In this document: one piece after another, positions 371-38,760 of the stretch | Position numbering within the stretch: the first letter of the stretch is position 1 | Layout of the letters: each line of letters opens with the position of its first letter | Origin: Ectocarpus siliculosus | Lineage: Eukaryota; Sar; Phaeophyceae; Ectocarpales; Ectocarpaceae | Reading direction: 5' to 3' | Assembly: GCA_000310025.1 (NCBI GenBank) | Contig: FN649741.1 | Location: 4,972,841-5,011,600, forward strand | Length of the DNA stretch: 38,760 bases | Notes under the pieces: model-generated | The model's input: the letters and a program-made list of their open reading frames with translations, nothing else | Database searches by the model: none | What the model was told of the DNA's origin: nothing | Position numbers and translations under genes: made by a program

Positions 371-1680
371 TGGTACTACAGTATCTGGCCAATGCCGTTG
401 TCACAGCTGGTGCTCCCCGCACAGGTGGCTTACCACGTGTTATGAAACCAGCTGGAGACCTCAAGCATGTTATGTTCTACACGTACGTGCAGACCTTTGA
501 TACGCCCTGGTTTCGCTCCGAACCTGGCAGATACCGCGCCATCAAAAGTGAATGCGTTGTCGATTCATGCCCGTTTCGAACCTCTCAGCACCAAACTCCC
601 ATCGGCAACACAGCGCGGAAGAGCTCGCCCGAGAATCCACGTAGGCATCGAAGGGTTGGCGCAATCTTTGATGACTGCCCCTGCGACGAGGGTCTTTCCT
701 GTGAAACTCTAACCGCCCACCATCCCGCGGCAACGGCAGCGGCTGGTGAGCCTCGCACCCCCCGAAGTTGCCAACAACGCCACCGACCCGCTTTCTCCCT
801 CACACAAGAAGGACAAAGGACGTCGCCGCTGCATCTCCCCGCGTGGAGAAAAACCTCATCCGCGAGGCGGTCGTCGCCGACGGTATATAATATAATATTC
901 CCAGCTCCACCCCCCCAGCGGGGTCCTCCGCCTTCTTCTTCTCGCCGTTGGACGTCCCATCCCGCCGGCCGAAAACAAGCTCTCGACCTGGCCCGACGGC
1001 AAGATCTCCGCGTCTCGCCGGAGGAAGAGAAAGGAAGGCGGGCCGGCTGCCCTGATCGCCCGTGTGCTCGCCGTCCTCATGTTGTGCAGCGGCGGTGCTC
1101 GTGCCGGTGCTGGCGGCCGCCACAGTCCCGGTGCCGAAACTCACGCCTGGGTTCTGTGGGAAGCGAACACATCCCGCCCTCCCGGAAAAGGCAGTAGGGC
1201 GTTCGCAATGGTCAACAAACAGCGACGCCTAAAAGCACGTCGAAAAATGAGACCGGCCAAACCTGGGTATCTGGAGGGGGGGGGGGGGTGTACTCATAGT
1301 CGTGCATGCCGTAGTCGTTAGACCATTGACCTCGCATCCCTACAAAGCCGGGACGGAGAATGCCGGGTTCTCAACGGACCAGGCTCTCACATCACCAAGC
1401 GCGAAGCGCCGTGAGGTATTCGGCGAGTCGCATGAAGGGTGCGCTGCATCCTGCTAAGGGTGTTCGGCATCTTGTGCTTACTTCCTTGCCTACGGATGGC
1501 AGCTGCGTATGACTTAATTTATTTTCTGGTGCTTTCACTTCCAGAGACAGCTTTAAGCGGTGTGTAACTGCCTCGAGGGTGCTTGACCAATATTAACACA
1601 ACGTGCGATTATCCCCTTTGCGCGGAGTGAGGGTTCTCGATCCCGCACAACATAATCTACTCGACCCCCATTCATGGTTA
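371..1680. other. Intergenic, no supportable gene
   Basis: Several frames are open for 60 to 300 codons, but their translations are Arg/Pro/Ser-rich and match no family I know. A TATA-like A/T stretch lies at 884-897 inside GC-rich DNA and a G run at 1277-1287. There is no clear start or exon chain downstream of the TATA-like stretch, so it is not called a promoter. Confidence 0.5.
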
Positions 1681-5738: not shown

Positions 5739-5960
5739 GTAAGTGTTGTGAGGTTGACGCGCGTAGCAATCCCTGAAGACCCTCAGAATACTCACATGTT
5801 TTTAGTCTGAGCAGCAGCTTGCTGTCTCCTTACTCTTTGGATAGACCGAAGAGAAGGGGGGAGCGGACCTCTCCTTGCGGGGAGGAGCCGCTATGGTTTG
5901 ACAATATCCTTTGCACCAATCCTACTGTAGGGAGTTGTTCAGATCCGGCCATAACCTGAA
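5739..5960 (+). repeat. Dispersed repeat, copy 2
   Basis: This is the partner of the copy at 3449-3680, offset by about 2.29 kb in the same orientation, with the same ordered blocks. It lies about 600 bases upstream of the receptor gene. Confidence 0.7.
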
Positions 5961-6577
5961 ATCTTCCCCATAAAACGTACATACATGTAGTACCGTTCCG
6001 GTCCTTGCACAATAGAGGTCCTTGTTTGGTGCCGGTTGAATAGTGCCGGTGCCCGGTGTTATCGGCGGGCATAGAGTAATTTTCAAAGTCATTCTCACAT
6101 TTCTTCAATAGCGCGGGTCCGGCATGGTGCCGGTGAATTTTGGGCATATCCCGGCAGTAAAATAAACAGGGACCTCTGCGGGTGTACTTGAATGTGCTCA
6201 AAATCCTTACATGTCATAGTGTAGAACACCGGCTTCTTGCTAAAGGTTCTTCCATGGTTTCCAGCGTCGCAATGCCAACAAGGGCGGCGCCTACATATCT
6301 GCACTCCGCATCCCTCCACACACGCAAGCACGTCATTGGAGTTGCTGTGGTAAGGGCGGCGTCAAGCTGCCAGGTAGGGCGTGTGACGTCATCAGACAAG
6401 CGTCGCACCGTTCCAAAGAAGAGAGCCGTACGTACACGTGCACAGAAATTTCTGGAGATGGGGTTATTTTCTCCGCATGGGGCATGTATTTATGATTTCC
6501 CTGGCGCGTTACTCTGCCGGTCCACCTGTGCCTCTGTCTCCCCTTCATGCATCTGGAGAGGTTGTCTATTTAACAGG

Positions 6578-9500
6578 ATGGCCGTTTCGTATCTTAGCTC
6601 GAGCGAACAGGATGGTTTGCTGGCGGCTGCTCAGGCCTGCGCCACGTTCTCCCTTCTAGGCTCCCTCTTCATCATTTTTTGCTACGCCCGATACAAGCAC
6701 CTGCGAAAGCTGAGCTTCACCTTGGTCCTCTTCCTCGCGATCAGCGATGTCGGTGAGCCGTGGGTTTGTTGGGGTCAGCTGCTCGACCGCGTCCCGAGGC
6801 CTGGCTGTTTGCGTTGTACACAATTGACATGGCCTGCCGCACGCGCTCATTCCTCTTTAGAACTGCCTGCTACTACCCTGTACGCGCATGAACACTACAG
6901 TTCGATTTGCACAACTCTTGCTTCACCTGCCTGTTGCCTGTTCCGTGTAGTCTAGCCCGCGAAGAATGGCATGGCCGTCTCCACCTTTCAAGTCCTCGAC
7001 AAGGGGGGTGCCAGAGTACGCGGGGAGCGCCATAGATTGTCTAGTGCGGGTGTTAGACAGAAGGAGTAGAAGGGTAGTCCCAGGAGAACCGCGGAACGAT
7101 ACCGCAGGATCAACGCCGAAGTTGCGCCGCGTGTCCCATCTGTGCTTTGTTGGCGCTGTGTATGCATGCTGCACAGCAGTACTGCGTAGAAGGGGAGGCG
7201 CGGAAGAGCACCCCATCCACCGATGGGAGCCAACGGGCAACCTACTGAGCTTGGGCGTCGAGGTCTCGCTTTCTCGCTAGAGGGATGTCTTTAAGCCTCC
7301 TTTTGTGCCCCGCTTACAAGGCTGGTGCCAGATGTTGTCTACTGCTGTCCGACACTGCTGTGCACCTACTGCTTGTACAGCGGTAGGCTAAATAGCCTCA
7401 TGTTCTAGTACTACATGTACCTGAAGACAGAATTAGTCTATGCAGTCTTGTATGGCTTTTGGACACGACACGTCTCAGGTGAGGAGAGTTTGCTTCACCC
7501 CTGCATACATACATACATACCTGGTTTAGTAAACACAGGCAAGATTGATACTTTTTCACACACTGGTAACCGGTGTATGGTCTTGACGATTGTATGGTAA
7601 CCTGCCATCTTCGTTTATTATAGTTTTGCTGAAAGCTTTAGTGTGACTGCGGAAACAGGTGACGCTTCGTCTGCAACATGTGTTTGTCTACGAATAGGAA
7701 CGGCTTTGCTGTTTGTTTACGGCCCAATTCAAAATGTTTTTGGTCTCTGGAAATATCATGCTCATGAGGCCATGAGCGCCATGAAGGAACAACGCCCAAA
7801 ATTGGCGCGGAAGGATATCGGCGATGTTGTACATCATGGTTCTGCAGCATCAACATGAACGAACAGAACGGCAGCATAGCATGGATATAGAAGGATGCGC
7901 TGGAAAATGTACAAACAAATTCCATGTGTTTCCTCCGCGTTGGTCGATCGGCCCTCCAACAACACATTCATATGGCAACCTCAGCAGGGTTTTTAGCTAA
8001 CGCCCTGTTCGCGTCTTGGCCCTCCTCGTGCATGCGTGTCCGCACATTGTCAACTCCCACAATCGGAGACCCCTTAAAGCGGCAAGATCGGGCACGCCTT
8101 CCACCCACCGACTATTGTGGCAGACTGCTCCCGCCTCCACCACGTGATCGATATGGTGATGCTACCTCGCCCATGTACCCCCAGCACTGATTCTGTTTTA
8201 TCTCGGTTTGCTGCGGTTGTTTTCGGATGCTACTGCTGCAGGCGCTGACATCACGTACTTCATGGGCAACCCCGAGGACAACAGGGCGGCCTGCGTGGCC
8301 CAGGGGGCCCTCCAGCAATTTTTCCAGGTCTGCGTGTGCGTTCGTCTTTTGTATGCCGTTGAGGTGTGCTTTAAAATCGGAATCAACGGCAAAGAATAGC
8401 GGCCGACTACATGAATGTCGGGGTGGACACGATGAAGGTAATTGAACGCTCTGGTCTGCCGGCTCTCGGGCCAGTGATGTGTGTATCTGATTGAGGTGTT
8501 TGATTGGCTAGAATGGACCATGCCAAGCGGCTGGCAGATGCACAACCATTCATCCGTTGTACGCGCAAACTTTGAACTAAAAAATCATATGTAACTAGCG
8601 AAAGAGCGTGCATTCTATTTTCAAGCACCGACCGCAATAGACGGTCGACCAACCTATATTGACCGTGCATGTGTTGTGTGTGTGTGCCATGCTTGGGGAA
8701 GTTAACAAATATCGGGAATACCCGGTGGTTTCACAGCAAAGAGGAACACTTCTTCATCAGTGCAGCACAGCGCCTACAGGTCAAGCAACAACTCTAAATC
8801 ACCTTCTACGTATCACGGACGCAGCACCACTCCTTGCGATCCTCGCCCTCCATCCCAAGTCACCCCCCCCCGCCCCCCCAACTCTCCATTTATCTTTCCA
8901 GATGGCTCAGATTCTGTGGGCAGTGGCGATAGCCTGCGTGCTGCGCGACGTGACGGTGAACCTGCGCATGTACCACCCACACGAGCAAAGCGCCCTCATG
9001 CGCCGCTTCCACGTCGCCGTGTGGGGCTCCGCCCTCTTGAGCACGCTGCTCCCGTTCACCACCGACAGCTACGGCTCCACGGGGTCGTGGTGCTGGATCG
9101 AGACGAACCCGGGGTCGGACGTCGACGTGGGCACGATGTGGAGATACCTCGTGCTGTACTGTCCTCTTTGGGCGGGTGAGTCGGTGTGGTCGCGGCAGAG
9201 CCCGTGTGGGGAGAGGCGGCAGGAAGAAGGATGGCGATGAGGCGTTTTGAGTGCGGGCGAGGGGGGGAAAGGGGGACGGCAGGCCAAGCTGGCCGGCTGA
9301 TGAGAGTAGGGACGAGGGGGAGGCCCGATAACAAGAGAAAATGGGGCATGGGCGAAACCAGCAACGGTTGAGCAGCTCGTCAGTCTTCTGTGGCCTTTAA
9401 ATTGGAACAGCAGTTTCCACGCTGGTGTTGACCCCTATCTGACCATGACCGCACACGTCTCCTGTTTGTTTGGGTTTCGCTCGGCGTTCGATGTCTGCAC

Positions 9501-12242
9501 CTCAGAAGAACAGGAAGCACTGTTTCACATTTGACTTTCACCATCCTCATCGTAGCCTTATTTCGTGTTTGTTCCTGCCACAGATCACAACCGATATTTT
9601 TCCGTCTGTACCTTCGGGCAATGCAGACGCCAGTCTCTCTCACCACACCCCATCCCGCCCCATCCCGCCCCCCCCGGTCTTTTCTTTCGTCGTTTGTACC
9701 CCTCAATCCTCTTGTCCGACCCCGTTCTACGCGGTGGATGAAACTCCGTTACGTTCCTGTTTCGATCTCCTGCGGACCTTGCCATTCTTTTGTGCGATGG
9801 GCGGAAAATGGGCGTCGGTTCTCGCAGCTATTGTGTTCAACATTAAGGTCTACGTGCGGATCTTCAGCGTTGTTCGAAGGTGCCTCAGCCGCAGTAGCAG
9901 CAGCGGCAGCAGAGTCTGGTGTACACATGTACACATCCTTCTGTATCGTAGGAGTGCATTTTTTAGTTCTCTTTTTGAACAGCAGTGTGGCAACGTGTCT
10001 TGTTTCGTCCACCACTTCATTGATGACAGGCTACGGCATTCTGGCGATAGACGGATGCGAGCAACAGCAACAACGCGAACAACTTCCAAAACCTGTTACG
10101 GCAACATGTCATGTTCGAGACCGTTTCATTCCTACGCAATTCACCTCCTGTTGTGATTGACGCCGGACGCTTCAACCGGGTGCCAACCAAGCACCGTCCG
10201 TTGCGTCGAGTATCTGACCATCGGCGAGACGAGAAAGGATAAGGCGAATTTGAGCGACGTAGAGCTGCCGTATTGAGAGTTTTTTCACCCCCTTCGTGTT
10301 CTACCGTATACTCCCACGTGCCGGCTTTCAACTCAGTACCAATCTTGTGTGGCACCGGGTCGGATTCCTGGTTGTTGGATGTTCGACACCCGAGATGAGT
10401 TAGAATACGTTCCTCGACATCACGTGTACGTTGGAATTTCGCATGAATCATTTGACAGGTTCTCGACGGAGATTGCCGGTGGCGCCTCCGCCGTGGGGCC
10501 GTCGGCGGAACAACAAACGAGAATGACCAAGTTTTCGAAGCGACTGGTTTGGTACCCGGCGGTGCTCATCGCCTCCTGGACCTTCGCGACCATCAACCGC
10601 ATCCAGAACGCCATAGACCCGGACCACCCCGTCTTCGGGCTATTTCTGCTGCACGTGAGAGGAGTACGCAAACGCCGAAAGGCTAGGAGCCAGGTGGCCT
10701 GGGCGTTGGACGAAGAAGAGTTGCTCATTATGATAGCTCGGTTCTGCGATTGTCGGCAAAACGTAATCTGACCATGTTTATCGGAGGGTGGCCGAATTCT
10801 GTTTTGGAAACGTTTTGGGCGAAAGCAGTCATCAACGGTGCTTGTATGGCTTGGCTTTGCGGGCGAGGTTTGGGTGTGCATATATCTGGGCACAACGAGT
10901 CTCCAGGAGAGGCGCAAATAGCTAACCCAATGGGTCAAGGGAACTACCGGAATCCGTTTCGGTGGGGACGACGGCCTTCGAATTGTTTATCAGGACGGAA
11001 ACACGCGCAAGAAACCGCGTAAGTTCTGTCATAGGAACGTGTCGGAAAGAGCGGGAGCCCATGGCCGGCAAAGGGTCCGATGGAGAGATCAGCAATCAAA
11101 CATAGCACAAGACACAAGTCCAACGCGCAAAAGTTATACGCCGCCTTTGTAACCCATCCACCACCTCTCCCTTGTCCCTCGCCCACGCCTTGTGTTCCTC
11201 CGGCGCTTTTTTTTTTTTATTGGCCGTGCCTCACCTCGTCTCGTCCCGCAGACGAGCCTTGTAGCGTTTCAGGGTTTCTTCAACGCCCTGGTGTACGGCT
11301 CGACCGACGCCGTCAAGGCCTCGGTCGTGCAGGAGCTCCTCGTGGAACGGTGCCTAAAGGCCAGCGGGGCCTGCCGGGGCGGCAGGGGAGAGTCGGGGCA
11401 AAGAGACAACAACGGTCTCGACCCGGAGGACGCTGAAGACAGCTCTATGGGCATGGGGACGACGGGAAATAGGTGAGAGACAGGCCAGCTTGAGCGCATT
11501 GATAGGAAGGATGCCCTTCTTCACCTGTAGGTCTGTGGTAACATGTGATGCTACCGCACGTGTGTTCTATTTTGAGACCTTTGTCGCTGTGTGTGAGGCG
11601 TTTGGGTGGTTCCTAGTGTCTCGGTGGGGCAGCTGAAGCTATTAGCGGAGATGCCCCGCCATTTTGACCCGGTACATACCGACCAATTTTCTGTCTCAAA
11701 GAGTCTTTGCACGTGTGCACCGCTTGTCTCGTGTTTGGAACCCGGGAGCGTCGTCAGTGTCTGACCCGCCCACGCACGCGAACGCTTGGCCCCACTTGGG
11801 GACGACGAACTGTGCCCACGCCTGCGATGTCACAGGCTTCGGGGGTAGAGGAAGCGATCAGCCCTAGACGTAGCTAGCTAGCTAGCTTCATCCAACTCGG
11901 TGTCGTGAGATGCCGTGCCTCAGTGTCACAGCGGCAGAAACCTCTGGGGCCCCTGCGTGGTGTTGTGTCGAACCTCCCCGTCCCCTCCCTTTTTGCAGAT
12001 TTTGTTCTAACGTTTGTCGCTGCCCCTCTCAAATCCCCAAACGACGAAGGTACAACGATGAGTCTCTCGGCGGCTTTGGGGACGGCGAGATGGACGCCAC
12101 GGGCGAGCACGAGCACGGGGGTAGCGCTAGCGGGGCGCGTGTGAGCGGAGTTGATGCGACCGGCATATCGAACGATCTCAAGACCAACGACGACGACGAG
12201 TCGGTCGAGGTGTATAGCGGTACCTCCAAGCAGGGCTGGTGA
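6578..12242 (+). CDS. cAMP-receptor-like (cAR family) seven-TM G-protein-coupled receptor
   Basis: Predicted exons are 6578-6752, 8242-8327, 8902-9175, 9828-9879, 10459-10654, 11252-11472 and 11999-12242. All introns are GT-AG and every junction keeps the frame, giving 415 residues. The protein should span the plasma membrane seven times and signal through heterotrimeric G proteins; the ligand is unknown. Likely segments: TM1 14-36, TM2 46-66, TM3 76-101, TM4 123-139, TM5 167-191, TM6 224-247, TM7 254-277. Family marks include the GSWCWIE turn before TM5 (Cys151, probably paired with Cys76), PLWAAIVFN in TM5, TINRIQNAI ending TM6 and FQGFFNALVYG ending TM7. The tail is hydrophilic, acidic and Ser/Thr-rich. 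ATG 6578 is chosen because it puts a short outside N-terminus before TM1; the frame is open upstream to 6182, so a longer start is possible. The donor of intron 2 (GTCTGC) is weak. Confidence 0.88.
6753..8241 (+). other. Intron 1 of the receptor gene
   Basis: This is the longest intron of the gene (1,489 bases), with a GTGAG donor and a CTGCAG acceptor. It contains a short (CATA)n run near 7503-7519 and no recognisable nested gene. The exon pair it joins reads SDV-GADITYFMG across the junction, within TM2. Confidence 0.8.
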
Positions 12243-22193: not shown

Positions 22194-25100
22194 CTAGAAC
22201 TCCCATGTGCTGGCGGTCTCGCGGTGCAGCGCGGAGGTCTTCGCCATCGTCACAGATGCCCTGGAGACAGCGTCCGTGCGGTAGAAGTCGTGCACGAGGG
22301 GGCCCAGGGTAGTCTCGTGGACCCGAATCTCCCCCTTGGGTGGGCCTGGAATTGGGCCGACCTGTTGAGTTTTTCGAAAGAGGGAGGGAAGAAGAGGGTG
22401 GAAAACTTGGATATTCTCTTGTGTGTATATAAAAAAAAGTGAGCTAGGACAGGACGGCAGAGCAGAAATACGACTGTATATCGACCATGGCTTGCAAAGA
22501 CAGGATATTGAACAGCACAGACAAAAACTCTGACAGAACCAAATCCCCACAGCTCGAGCCAGCCGAAAAATAGCTCGCCAACAAGCCGACATATGCCACC
22601 GCTGCTCCCAACACCTTTACCGACCCCCGTGTACCTGAGAGTGAGACAGCTCGTCCATGTTGAGGGTGAGCGGTACGAGGGTCTGCACGCGCTCCTCCAT
22701 CTCCTCGTCGTCGCTGTATGGGAGCGTTACCCCGACGAACTCCCCCAGCGCGCGCACGATCTTCCAGTCCTCACGGGCAATTCCTGGAGGCGGGAACACA
22801 AACGCGGACCTGCGGAACCGTGGGGGGGGACCAATCAGCGGTGTAGAAAAGAGTCTCAATTGATTTCAAGCATGAAACAACAGAAAGCATCCAGCCAGTA
22901 TTTTATCCGCCGGACGCGCGAACCAAACTGGTTTCCTGAAAACACTGCAACTACCACGTGCTCGCAGAGAACGAATTCTGGTCGGCAAGAAGACATGTTT
23001 CCACCAGCTTTGCCTGGTCGTCCAGGAAAAAAAAACACCGCAAAGCCTCCTACGCCACCCCCGGTCGTTGAGAAACCCCTCTCCCGAAACGAAGGATCCC
23101 CCAAAACTGGTGACGTCATAGCTACTGCCCCGGACACGAGATAGTCCCCAAAAACACAAAAAAAATGGCCACAGCTGACACTTGATGTATGAGCAGGGGA
23201 CTAAAACTCGCACCGAACGCAGACTGGATGCGCGAGAACAAAGATAAACAAAAAAAGGGGAAGGAGCCCGAGGTGTGGCACAGCACCATGTCACTCCGGA
23301 ACAGGAGCTACACCCGAGAGGGGCCAACTTCATCCACTCGACGGGTCGACGCAAAACAGAGCTGCTGCTCGTGCATCTAAAGAGCGTGATACGGGATGGC
23401 AGGTGGTGGCCAGAAATTGAAAGACCTTTTCAGCCGCGCGTCTGTAAAAAAACGTTCGCCCTTGCGACAAAAGTTTTTTCATTGTGCAACCACAACAAAA
23501 AAGAGCAAAACGAGATGAGACCAAAACGAACCGCCGTGTGCCAACGGGGAGGGGGCTACTGGCAAGACAGTCGTTGAAACGAATTCCTGTATGCTAGGCG
23601 TGAAGCTGCGTGGGTGCACTTTCGTCGTCCTATCGACTGTTACCCGCCTATCTAAAACGCAGCACCTTACCGTAGCGTCTTCACATGAACAGCTACGATC
23701 GGGGTGACGCACAATGGTTTCTCGACGGCGGCTTCAGCCCCGATATATACTTCTGCGAGAAGGGGCCCAGATCTTGTTTCCTCGACACTACGTCGCCCGT
23801 GCTCGCAAGCCATCGATCATTCACCTCTGTGGTCTCCCTTCGGTGTTCACGTAGGTCCCCTCCTTCTCCACGAAGGTCGCGCCGGGCAGCAGCGCGTCCA
23901 CCTCACCCAGGTTCTCGTCTCCGTGCGTGCCCTGTCCGTCGACACGATTCCACCACGCACCGAAAGAAGGATTCGTATCGAGCACAGGATGGCCGCATCG
24001 TTGTACTATATAGGTACAAGAGGAGGTGGTTATCTATCCAGCAACAGGCCAACCCGCGTATGTCTGGCTTGGCTGCCATGAGGCGACCGGCACTGTGATT
24101 GCGCAAACGTCGCATGCACCGGGGGTGTCGTAGAATGGGAGAGAGGGGTGTGCATATCCGGTGGATAGGGGCACCGTGGTGGACACGAGCGACAGGGTAG
24201 GACTCGGCGGCGCGGAACTCAAGCAAGCGTGTCGGTGCTACAGCATGTTTCAGCAGCCCTGTCGAATCACCTGAAGGTCGAAGGTTGACCATGGCAAAAA
24301 GGACATCCACACCGCCGCTGCTGCTGCTATGCCAGAAAGCAACAACTGGCGCCTGAAACCAACACCGTACATCGATCCACACTCGTGCGACATACCAGAA
24401 CATGACCTTGGACTCGCCGTCAGACTGTTTCGTAGCCAGCTGGATCGCCGTTGCGACCACGATCAAAGCGCAAAACGAAGCGCTCGCTTCGTCTACATAG
24501 CCTCCAACCCCCCCGGTCAACAACCAGAGGAGCCTTGACACACATCTTCTCCTCCTGTTCCTCACCTGGTAGACGACCGCCTTCCCCGCCTCCTTGAGCT
24601 CCGCCGCCAAGGCGGAGTCGGCCAGGTCCACCAGGTAGAACGTCTCCGCCACGTCCGCGCGTGCGGGCCCCCGCGGGAGAGGGTCCAGGTGGAGGGCCGT
24701 CAGCCCCACGTCGTTCGCGTGCGAGCTGACGAGGTGCACGCAGTCCTGCGATTCACCGGCCTGTTATTTATTTATTTATCGTCACGAGACGAGGAAAAGA
24801 AAGTGGACAATCACATCGGGGGTGTGGACAGACAGGGTTGCACGCAACGACAGAGGTGGGGTGGGAAGGAGTGGGGGGGGAGGGAGGGATCGAGGTGGGG
24901 GCAATGGTGGGGAGAGAGTCGCAATACCTGGCACAGAAGTCGTGCCGGAGCATCAGCAGGCGGCGTGTAATTTGAGCCCCGCCGACTTCGGGCTCAGGAG
25001 TAGGAAAATTCATTCAAGACGAGCAAATAAAAATAGTGAATGTGAGGAACGCGGTTGGCAAGGTTGAGGGAACCGGGGGAGGGGGTACCCACACAGGCTG

Positions 25101-28100
25101 AACCGCCAGAGAGACTCTTTCAACACTTGTTCTTGAAGCAACACCAAAAGCTTTTCTAGGCGCTTGATTTCTGGGTCCGCCAGGGGACCAAAGCAATCGT
25201 TCCTGTGACTTTCTTCCCTCCACACACCTTGGTCTGAGCGTTGAGGCTCTTGAGAAGCTTCATGATAGACGCCGAGTCGTCCCGTTCCAGCACCGCCGAA
25301 CCGTAGAGGATGAGAGGCTTCTCGGCCGCGGCGAGCGCCTTGCAGAAGGGGTGCTGGCGGCGATCGGTGATCGGCATCAAAGAAAGTAAACCACAAGGGG
25401 GGCGGGGAGCGAGGGATAAAGGAGCAATTATTGGTCCGTGTCGAGCGTGTGTGTCGTCCCGTTTGTATGTGTTTGGTCTCTAATCTGTGTCATGGATGGC
25501 ATCAAATCGCCATCTTCTACAAATACCCCCATCCTGTTCTCATCACATAACAACAAGCACACGTGACACAACCACAGGCGAAAAACTACACGAAAACGGG
25601 AAAACAAAAATACCATCGCCACAGTCCAGATTTTTGCACCAAAGAACGTACAACCAGCAGGAACAAAAACGTCTGCAGCATGAAACTACCCAACAGCACC
25701 AAAAAACGTAGCAATGCACCTCTGGGCCTACGCCATACGCGAACGCCGTTATTCACGCCCCCCCAAAAGGCAAAGACTGAAACTCATTCGCGCGTGGGTG
25801 CTTGGGGGGGGGGGGACAATCACCTTGCCCTCCGCTAGCTCGACGAGGGACGCAGGCGTCAAGCCGAGGTTCTCAGCGTCGTACGTCAGGCGGACGGGGG
25901 CCCCGATGGTGCCCACGGTAAGCCCACCGCGCAGCCAGCGCTGGCGGATGCGGACGTTGAGCATGGTGGCCTCCAGGCGGGCGTTGAGGCCGACATGCAG
26001 GATGAGATCCGCCTGTCGTCGTGGCATTGCCGGCATGCAATTCACCGTGAAATTAGACAGGTAAAAGGAGGTTTGGCATGGCATGAGACTGGCGGTCTGT
26101 GCTTCACCTCCACATGCAGCATGATAAAGATCTGCCTGCAGTTTGTACCTCTTTTTTTTCCGACGAGGGAGAGAGGGAGGCAAGGACGCGTGCGTTGTTT
26201 CGTCCGGTCTATTCGTCTTCACATAAAGGGAAAGGCGAGGCAAAGGCAGCGTCGCTCGTCGCAGCAAAATAGGAGCTACCGCAGGGAGAGCAACAGTGGG
26301 CAACAGGAGGGGGCGGGGCTGGCGAAAGGGGCATGCGAAAACACACAACTAGTGAAAAAAACGGAGCTGAATGGTGTCTTGACGAAGGGTTACGGTTGGC
26401 AGGACATCGCATGCGTTGCTTGGAGGAGGCCACTTAAGGGACGACATTTTGAGCCCCCATCACCCCCTTGTCTGAACAATACAACAGTCACTGAGTGTAT
26501 CCGTGCACCGACATTGTGAGACTTCTGCTCACGACCCAACTAGAATCCACAACAGAAACACGTCCAATTCACGACATCGCACAGACTTGCGTTTGTTGGA
26601 AAGTTCCTGAGTGTATGGGCTAACTGATTCGCAATACAGACGGCATCTCTTTGCATCTCGGACGAGGTTCTCGCACATTGTGGAGCTGCGCCTGGTGTGG
26701 GCGAAAAGTTAGTGGGGGGCTCATGTCGGCTCCCATCACCCCAAGGCAAGGGGAATTCTTCCATATTTTCGAGCAACAACAAACAACAACAAAAACAGCG
26801 GGCCGTGACACCGCCCGGCACTTACGTCGTCGACGTCCGCGAGCTTGAGGTGGTTGGGGTGGTCCTCGGCCTCGATGCCACCCTCCTTGTACACGGCGGC
26901 GTTGCCCATCCTCAGGGCCAGGTCCTTCACCGCCACGGCTGTCTCGAGGTCCACTCCGCGCCCGACCACGAAGGCCGTGGGCCTGTGGGAGAGCGGCGCG
27001 GGAGAGCGGCGGTCGGTCGGTCGGTCGGGGGGGGGGGAGACGTGAGTGAAGAAGACAGCGACGAAGGGCATGCCATGCCATCACCAAAAGCAAGGCAAGA
27101 ATACGCATGGACACTCACTCACTCAGTCGCTCCAGAAACAACAAACACAAATAACAAACAAAAATAGGTGACGAGTTGCCTGCTAAGTGATGGACATCGG
27201 CACCACGCGTTGCCCCCTATTATACCACGTTGTCGTTGCAACAGAACTAACATCTTCCAAACACAAAAAACACTAAATAAACCCAAGCAACGAAGCTTGG
27301 CTGGGCGGCGGTAAATTCGACCGCAAGAGCCTTTTCTTCGCTTTCGGTTGACGCACCTGTCGACAAGGCCTGCCACGGCCTCGAGCCCCTGCTTCCACGT
27401 CACAGGGGCCAGGGACGCGCTGCCGTCGTCGCCCATGAGGGTGGCGTAGGGCCTGTCCAAGCGCTGCCGCTTGAGACCGTCGTAGGAGAAGCGCGCCTTG
27501 TCGTGGATCCACTCCGAGTTGATTTCTTCGTTCTCACGGGGCAGCACGCGCATCACCTCCGTCTCCTGTACCGGTTTACGACGCCGTTGGGTGGGTAGCA
27601 GCGCAGAGTGTTACCAGGAGAACGCGCCCGGCGGCCACTGCAGGAGAGAGGTGTCCGCGTCTACGCAGACACGGCAAACACAGCACTACAGCCCGAGAAA
27701 CACGTTCGCCCTTTTCATGTTGTGTGTGAGGGCGTCGGGTGAAGCAGGCAGCAGTCGTGGTCACCCCAAGAGAGACTTGGGGGGGGGTCGTGGCGACAAG
27801 GGAGGCAGACAGCAGCGCCAAAGAGCAGCCGATTCCACGAACCTAACTGGCTCGTATTGGATGTAGAACCGCCTACTTTAGCAACATGGTAGAGTTTTAC
27901 CCTGATGAACAAATGGGCTCGACGGCAACTTTGCTGGCGTGTGGGGAGGTGCCATGAGGGGAAAACTTGCTTTTTGCCCAGCCCTCCCCGGGAGATTCGG
28001 GTCGGAAATGCGCGTTGTGTGGTGAAAATCGATGACACCAGAGTACACAGACGCGATGAATATAAAATGACAGGAAAGACATGCAGTGAGGAAACCCACA

Positions 28101-29153
28101 GGGCAGACGAAGACGGAATTTATTTTCACGCGCAAATGTCACGAGCGCTTCTCTTCGGGATACTATTTTCACATCCGCTATTTCACTGCTGTTTACCAAG
28201 AGGAACCCGAGCGATACCCGCCCAGTCGCAGGCCGGGCTCTCTTGCACAAACGAGAGCCTGCCCTATGAGACGGCAAACAGACGCGCGGGTGTATGTGGA
28301 TATGTATGTTGGCATGTTTTCTGGCTATGAAAATCGGGAATGCCTTACACAGCGAGGAAGGAGGCTCTTGGGCAACACGCGGTTTGCGGCGCGCCTAAAC
28401 ACCGGCTGTTCCCACCTCCCGCTGCGCGCAGTTGCTATGCATGCCACATGGCACTTTGCACGACACTGCCGTAGGGGAGAAATCAGAAACCAGGGGTGCA
28501 CACACATGTGCATGCAGATACTGCAGCAATACATGTACAGCAGTAGCTGTGGATGCATACGCCCTCCTCCGCCTGTACGAAAGGCCGCTTGGAAGGAAAC
28601 ACGTTACCATCGTGGCTACGGCAGGCAAAGACGTACGGCAAACAGACAGCGCACGTGTGTTGCACACCAGAGTACGCAAGCGCAACATGCCACCGCTAAA
28701 GCCCTAAAGTGCAAGCAGCTCGCACGTCGCGCGGCGGCACGCCCCGTCGCCCACCTTGTAGTCCACGCGGATGTTGCTTCCCACCCCGTCCGAGACATCG
28801 ATGCTCTCGGCATGTCGGAGCTCCCAGGGCCTCGCCTGGAAGGCGTAGGGCTTCGAGGTCAGCGCTCCCACGGGGGCGATATCTATGCTGTTCTCCTGGA
28901 CCCGCAGCACGCCGCCCTTGCTAGCCGCCCCCGCTTCCCGCTCCACTTCCCCCCCTCCCTGCCGCTTCGCAGGCAACGCGTTGTTTGTCGTTGCGAACGC
29001 TGAGTAAGAGAGCGACGCGCGAGGGGCACTGATTGCGCAGCTGAAACTGCTGCTGCTGCTGCTGCCTGCCACTGCCCCGCACGCCCTCGTTGCCGCAGCA
29101 GTCGCGCGGGCCGAGCCTCCAACCCTGGAGATCATGGCAATGGAGCCGCTCAT
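22194..29153 (-). CDS. NDUFS1: Complex I 75 kDa subunit (NDUFS1/Nad11), C-terminal domain only, nucleus-encoded
   Basis: Exons in transcript order are 29153-28755, 27565-27357, 26982-26826, 26012-25824, 25353-25228, 24760-24566 (or from 24745), 23931-23825, 22809-22635 and 22361-22194. All are GT-AG and in frame, giving about 574 residues. The mature protein is part of the matrix (N-module) arm of NADH:ubiquinone oxidoreductase. Residues 87-132 ([16 protein letters not shown], then [13 protein letters not shown]) match the junction after the Fe-S domain; then come [76 protein letters not shown] and [17 protein letters not shown], all in NDUFS1 order to the usual C-terminus. The whole N-terminal 2Fe-2S/4Fe-4S domain is absent and replaced by a Ser/Ala/Arg-rich presequence. 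This fits stramenopiles whose mitochondrial nad11 encodes only the Fe-S domain. In-frame ATGs at 29273 and 29297 offer longer presequences. Confidence 0.92.
28755..29153 (-). other. Exon 1: mitochondrial presequence plus vestigial Fe-S junction
   Basis: Residues 1-65 are rich in Ser, Ala, Thr and Arg, nearly without acidic residues ([20 protein letters not shown], then [15 protein letters not shown]). That is the composition of a mitochondrial targeting peptide; cleavage near SYS/AFA is plausible but inferred. Homology to NDUFS1 starts at about residue 87. Ala93 (codon at 28877-28875) replaces the Cys of the usual [14 protein letters not shown] motif, a ligand of 4Fe-4S cluster N4 in complete 75 kDa subunits. 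Confidence 0.85.
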
Positions 29154-31167
29154 CGCTGTGCCGTGGTCCACTACAAACTGCCCCGAAGGACTTGCGCGTG
29201 TGAGTGTGAAGAGCGGCAACACAGCGGCAGCTGCAAGACGGTTCGCACGCAGACCGGGACGCCGTATCTGCATGATGGGGGGGGTATACAATATCATTGG
29301 CGAGACCCCCTCGGCCGCCCCTGCCGCCGCTCGTGTCGTTGCGTGCTTTGTTTGTGATTTCTCAAGGGCGAGAGCGAGAGAGAGCCTAGTGTCTTCGAGG
29401 AGGGACCTTCAGGGAGAGGTGGTGACACCCGTAACTCCGTGTCTGGGAGTTATTTTTACAGAAGGGTAGTCGTCAGGGTCGACTCTTGCTTTGGGCCAAA
29501 AAAAGTCAAACGGTTGAACGCGGGATAGGGGGGAGAGCAGCCTTGGAGGGTGGTGTACTTGGCTTGCTGCTGCAGGAGCGGCGAGAAAGATGGAAGCGAT
29601 TGAAGACGCGGTAAGCTCTACATGCCTACAGAGGACCCGCGTGTTTTTCTCGGCTTGGCGACCCCATGTGGGAACCGACTGCAGCAACAACGTTGTCAAC
29701 AGCAGCGTTTCATAGTCTGTTGTGTAACACCACCGCTATAGTACTACTATGCACTCTCGTGTCTTGGGGAGATGGAAATCCCGTTGCATATTTGCCCAGG
29801 GCCTGCTGTGATCGGCACCGCTGGGGGTAACAAAGACCAACTCCTCCCGGATCGATGATCCCCGGGTTATCTCTGTAGCCAGCAAGGAGAGGGAACCACC
29901 CGTGGAACGATGTAGGCATTCTCCACAATTGATCGAAAACCATGCACACGCACAACACTCACTCAATCAGCATGATGTTCCTACAAGCAGCAAGCATTCA
30001 CGCCTACAGCAGTGCCTGGGCGGCATTACCAGCGTTGAGGGTGCCTGATCTGATGGACCTCTTGAGAGACTAATTGATGACTCTGGTGTTCCGGGTTTGC
30101 TGCCGTGATTTTGGTCGAGCTTCCAGAGCAAGGTGCTGCTGCCCTTGGTGCATTCCTTTTTCGCTGATGTTTTGCCTTCAGCTTACCCCCGGTTCTCGAG
30201 ATTTGGCTTCACAATCGTGATCTGCTGAGTACCGCCGTACCCTAGAGCAGCGAGAGGGAAACAAACCCACGGGTTGAGCGAGATGCGTAGATGTAACGAA
30301 GAGCAGGCAGTTTCGTACCAGTGTTATGCATATGTTCTTAGGTTCGAGGACCGAATTTGGGGTGTTGGGTAGCAAGTTGCGCGAGATTCCACGCCCCCTG
30401 GACCGATGTTTCAAGGTTCGATTTCTCCACGGTGAGGAGGATTCCAAACTCAACCGACACGTTTTCGGAAAGCTCTCGACGAGACGATTCAAACGCCCAC
30501 CGCCATTGTCGGCACCGCCGCTTTTCTGCTTTTTTTGCTGCCGAGAAAAGGTCGAGCTTTTAGAACTGGTCCAGGGGGTGTGGTATCTTACGGAATGTAC
30601 GGCAGGTTTCCCAATGTTTGTGTTGCTGCTATCTGTTCAAAACAGACGTGAGAGCACGCGAACCACCATTGTCCATGACTGCTCTACAGTCTCGTTTACG
30701 CGACGCAAATCACGCTGCTCGCATGTAACAAGGACAGCATCAAAACGCGCCAGCAACCTCAGAAGGAAGTATTAACAGATGTGAACAACAGACAGCAGTG
30801 GCCGCGCAGCATTAGAGTAGGAACCTCTCATGTTTTGGTTTGTGGCCGTATCCATTCAAAACTCAAACCTCTCTCTCACGCCTTGTCGCACAATCAGTCC
30901 GTCATCGATCCACGTGGCTGTTCGGAGTACACCTCACGGCTTCTCTTCCCTGGATCGCGCGCCCTGGTGCACGAATACCTCCGTTTTCGCGGAAACTAGA
31001 CGTAAGCTTTCTTCGCTCCGGCTCAACAACAGCGGTATGCCGAGCTTTCAGGGTATTGTTTACAGCAGCACTACCCAGACAGCCCGCCTTTTCACCCCCC
31101 ACACCACCCCCAACCACCCTTGTTTGCCCACCTCTGGCGACGTTTGGCCATGTTTGTGTGTGTGCAG
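29154..31167. other. Divergent intergenic region
   Basis: About 2 kb separates the starts of the minus-strand complex I gene and the plus-strand CENP-C gene, so both promoters should lie here. I see no clear TATA box. Plus frames near 30326-30775 and 30830-31285 are open but give unremarkable translations. A box-B-like GGTTCGATTT occurs at 30416-30425, without a tRNA fold around it. Confidence 0.5.

Positions 31168-38760
<7,593 letters not shown>

Follow-up and report, generated by a model that had tools for sequence, protein, structure and literature searches.

Nuclear and mitochondrial genes for complementary halves of the complex I subunit Nad11/NDUFS1 in Ectocarpus siliculosus

The stretch of Ectocarpus siliculosus DNA analyzed here (38,760 nucleotides, hereafter the window) contains a nuclear gene whose product resembles only the rear part of the complex I subunit Nad11/NDUFS1, raising the question of whether the gene is complete as it stands and, if so, where the front part of the subunit is encoded. 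The gene runs on the minus strand from 29153 to 22194 in nine exons, exactly as the initial annotation had placed it. Homology guided the placement of exon cores by eye, and splice borders were restricted to the AG and GT/GC types. Of the 9472 open models, the one with the highest score encodes 569 amino acids with GT and AG at 8/8 introns, and the second-best, which uses the other exon 6 acceptor, encodes 574 amino acids; in this spliced-model scoring the product length (569–574 amino acids) is accordingly set by that acceptor. The exons are as follows.

Exon 1, 28755..29153, minus strand: putative presequence, then start of the homologous part; donor gtgggc; start codon 29153, 29273 or 29297
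Exon 2, 27357..27565, minus strand: extends to GLVDR; second part of PF22151 and start of PF00384
Exon 3, 26826..26982, minus strand: homology-placed core
Exon 4, 25824..26012, minus strand: homology-placed core
Exon 5, 25228..25353, minus strand: homology-placed core
Exon 6, 24566..24760, minus strand: alternative acceptor starts the exon at 24745
Exon 7, 23825..23931, minus strand: homology-placed core
Exon 8, 22635..22809, minus strand: homology-placed core
Exon 9, 22194..22361, minus strand: stop codon and PF09326 C-terminal motif

Three domains occur in order along the product, PF22151 (residues 112–162), PF00384 (168–484; E = 3.1e-62) and PF09326 (536–560), all above their curated cut-offs, and this succession assigns it to the C-terminal half of the NuoG/Nad11/NDUFS1 family. 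From ENSIDI on, the nuclear half aligns to residues 221–712 of 6g2j_G, a mitochondrial NDUFS1, almost end to end; this chain is also its best match among solved structures (E = 7.2e-103, query residues 2–477 of 488), and the homology is far above chance level. Against the NuoG profile TIGR01973, the nuclear half covers positions 188–606 only (283 bits). Positions 1–187 are absent, in agreement with the earlier claim that the Fe-S part has no counterpart in this gene.

The front half of Nad11 is present in the same assembly, as an open frame of 213 codons on the minus strand of contig C295 (820–1461), between nad6 and nad3 (gene names from our reading of the open frames). The frame carries the domains PF13510, PF10588 and PF22117, covers positions 1–195 only of TIGR01973 (296 bits), and ends GGVIELCPVCWIKLNIN-stop, matching the prediction of a short mitochondrial nad11 that ends near ICPVGALT. 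Neither half alone (283 and 296 bits) reaches the TIGR01973 cut-off of 470 bits for the whole subunit, as expected because the subunit is split. Queried from its first ATG, a start that omits the frame's initial 53 residues, the mitochondrial half aligns to 6g2j_G residues 77–229. The expected ligand places in it all have cysteines.

Ligand-place residues, C295 frame 820–1461, minus strand: C41, C52, C55, C69; H101 with C105, C108, C114; C153, C156, C159, C203

We take these residues to be the ligands of clusters N1b, N5 and N4, and on this assignment only the mitochondrial half carries ligands of the three clusters. No ATG occurs in the frame before codon 54, by which point two N1b cysteines out of four (C41 and C52) have already been passed. 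A non-ATG start is therefore needed, and a CTG at C295:1440, two bases past the stop of the nad6-like frame, fits this role. Such a start is consistent with those reported for nad11 in Ectocarpales, which are TTG, GTG or CTG, with CTG in E. siliculosus (PMC5695614).

Contig C295 (31,036 bases) is taken as the mitochondrial genome of the organism in incomplete form. By reading of their translations, its frames correspond to nad1–nad6, nad9, cob, cox1–cox3, atp6, atp9 and ribosomal proteins, and it also carries 20 tRNAs and part of the large rRNA. The contig is incomplete: it is cut inside the large rRNA, its ends do not overlap, no small rRNA match was found on it, and the nad7 family has no match anywhere in the assembly. 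Two minus-strand frames of the contig have unusual interiors. An open frame of 1279 codons (5876–9715) resembles cox2 at both ends, with a very long insert between them; brown algae carry long cox2 inserts. The nad6-like frame (1443–2360, 305 codons) contains a long hydrophilic middle stretch.

The complementary coverage of TIGR01973, 188–606 in the nuclear gene and 1–195 in the mitochondrial one, supports the proposal that the subunit is built from two polypeptides encoded in two genomes; with complementary halves in two genomes, one core complex I subunit therefore corresponds to two polypeptides. Very probably, the nuclear gene encodes the C-terminal, molybdopterin-oxidoreductase-like half of Nad11/NDUFS1, the N-terminal half is made in the mitochondrion, and the imported nuclear product pairs with it to rebuild the subunit. 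The assembly directly shows the gene with its domains, the short mitochondrial gene complementary to it and the junction between the halves.

Could the nuclear gene instead be full length, its Fe-S exons having escaped notice further upstream, with the short mitochondrial gene left as a relic? We searched the assembly (189 Mb, 492 contigs) with procedures that read it exon by exon and score the best candidates only. The three Fe-S family models (PF10588, PF13510 and PF22117) gave one match each assembly-wide, all in the C295 nad11 frame, whereas the positive control PF22151 (51 residues), although interrupted by intron 1, was recovered above its cut-off in both pieces. Sensitivity was not uniform, and some complex I families did escape detection: of the yardsticks, the neighboring complex I family PF01512 gave one match (contig C21), and PF01257 and PF00346 gave none across the assembly, so that a negative family search here is no proof of absence. 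A protein search with the mitochondrial half listed, besides C295 itself, just C479:931167-931226 (E = 0.026) and a place on C6 (E = 0.18). The former was rejected as a nuclear Fe-S half, being part of a mitochondrial insert (155 aligned bases, 86% identical to C295:717-870, running from the last part of nad11 into the first part of nad3) that is too short for an Fe-S domain; the latter was taken as chance. Within the window, tblastn with the mitochondrial half returned 12 matches at chance level (best E = 0.95). An upstream nuclear exon for the Fe-S domain was thus sought on the nuclear contigs with both family models and the mitochondrial protein and was not found, within the limited sensitivity of such searches in an intron-rich genome. 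Nor does the mitochondrial copy look like a relic, its frame being open and every expected ligand kept. The unsettled 5′ end of exon 1 is a further point in favor of missed upstream exons; taken with the searches, we nonetheless regard a full-length nuclear gene as highly improbable.

The reciprocal search gave a corresponding picture. The nuclear half listed ten stretches in the assembly, nine of which are the exons of the gene and the tenth of which has E = 0.066. On C295 the C-terminal half gave one match only (E = 6.2 over 9 residues), and neither a full-length nad11 nor a C-terminal half was found on this incomplete contig. Around the gene, ten of the 55 open frames in the window that reach 150 codons (37538–38758, 166–1194, 33132–33983 and seven others; five upstream of exon 1, one of those on the minus strand) were scanned with Pfam, and 0/10 had a match at E 0.001. 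Separately, about 440 bases from exon 1, an ATG on the plus strand opens a 21-base stretch that runs to a donor-like gtaagc site (29590–29616); a divergent gene may begin with this exon.

The initial annotation had also placed a targeting-type presequence in front of the homologous part. The stretch in question is rich in A and S, with some R and few acidic residues, a composition compatible with that proposal; the argument is one of composition, and the helical moment from Met 29153 is weak. Counted from Met 29153, the initial 60 residues contain 4 R/K and 0 D/E, with a helical moment of 0.29. Two further in-frame ATGs lie upstream, at 29273 and 29297, with no intervening stop, and the 60 residues from 29273 (7 R/K, 1 D/E, moment 0.48) are more presequence-like than those from 29153. 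Given this weak amphipathic score from 29153 and the better one from 29273, any of 29153, 29273 and 29297 may be the start codon. The mitochondrial import machinery of Ectocarpus has been described by an in-silico survey (PMC3097184).

The junction itself can be placed closely, as the two halves share about eight residues, corresponding to 6g2j_G residues 221–228. One codon on the nuclear side of this overlap differs from the aligned NDUFS1 chains.

Codon GCC (alanine), 28875..28877, minus strand: aligned NDUFS1 chains have the cysteine of CPVGALT here

This cysteine is presumably the fourth and last ligand of cluster N4. The nuclear half still holds about eight residues of the Fe-S domain's end (NSIDI-A-PV), in which alanine takes the place of the N4 cysteine, whereas the mitochondrial half retains VIELCPV including the cysteine (C203), then diverges into an unrelated tail and stops within a few residues. 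The nuclear half has two cysteines in 488 residues, and because neither is at a ligand place, the sites of all three clusters belong to the mitochondrial half. One reading of this complementary junction, which we hold to be evenly balanced between true and false, is that the nuclear copy was once longer and that each copy lost what the other kept, such that the N4 site would now lie where a protein made in the mitochondrion meets an imported one. We found no description of a shared junction with the ligand on one side only in the literature searched, outside which the primary papers of 1999 and 2011 lie.

In the two-genome arrangement that we favor, the mitochondrion would still encode and make the N-terminal half, which carries the ligands of the three Fe-S clusters N1b, N5 and N4, and the nuclear product would be imported by means of its putative N-terminal presequence; the imported half would then pair with the mitochondrial one, restoring the subunit in the matrix arm. 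We infer that the nuclear half is expressed, imported and assembled into complex I. A different possibility is that the nuclear half no longer functions in complex I, the Fe-S half working alone and the nuclear protein having another role or being in decay. A precedent of sorts may exist in diplonemids, for which, in the portion of PMC12699882 consulted, no C-terminal counterpart was retrieved; against decay or another role, the frame is intact across all nine exons, their borders are usable, and homology extends over the entire half, C-terminal motif included, leading us to consider this possibility very unlikely. Least credible of all, and to be given virtually no weight, is that C295 is a contaminant or misassembly and not the mitochondrial genome of the same organism: it is a separate 31 kb contig with a GC content of 0.33 (a 3 kb segment of C479 gives 0.49), but it has the cox, nad, cob, atp and ribosomal protein frames, tRNAs and partial large rRNA described above, and the C479 insert in the same assembly, which resembles its nad11–nad3 junction, suggests the same lineage.

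A core complex I subunit derived from two compartments bears on the retention of genes in organelles and on the assembly of complexes of dual origin. The principle has already been described for brown algae and, in other forms, for eustigmatophytes, diatoms and Euglena; the contribution of the present assembly is to provide both halves side by side, together with the exact junction. In brown algae the split between nuclear and mitochondrial genomes is already known. For Pylaiella littoralis, the text of PMC3999925 (citing Oudot 1999) gives a mitochondrial nad11 with the Fe-S domain only and a nuclear molybdopterin-like domain, and that of PMC3423374 (citing Oudot-Le Secq and Green 2011) gives the same split for E. 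siliculosus, so that the earlier statement that brown algal mitochondrial nad11 is limited to the Fe-S domain is in print. The arrangement found here is the same, the comparison being with published descriptions and not with nuclear sequences: the mitochondrial gene stops after the Fe-S domain, and the molybdopterin-like half is nuclear and was not found on the mitochondrial contig, itself incomplete. Most stramenopiles are said to have a split Nad11 (PMC6723347, in the part consulted). The initial annotation was mistaken, however, in extending the brown algal pattern to diatoms, in which, as far as the relevant parts of PMC3423374 and PMC8987724 describe it, nad11 is whole or is split with both parts mitochondrial. 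The nad11a/nad11b of diatoms and dinotoms share the fission at the domain border, but both parts stay in the mitochondrion and many diatoms are unsplit, unlike the gene here. Nannochloropsis likewise keeps one half per genome, with transfer in the opposite direction, the Fe-S half being nuclear and the molybdopterin-like half mitochondrial (PMC3999925, same portion). In the solved complex I of Euglena gracilis (8iuf and related structures), the subunit is also made of two chains, NDUFS1A and NDUFS1B, both of which are nuclear according to the available passages of PMC10884005, in contrast to the split described here. The break in Euglena comes later, as 8iuf chain 1A still matches residues 2–91 of the nuclear half used here, and its C-terminal partner is called a recruited protein in the section of PMC12699882 consulted, whereas the E. 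siliculosus gene is a plain NuoG relative.
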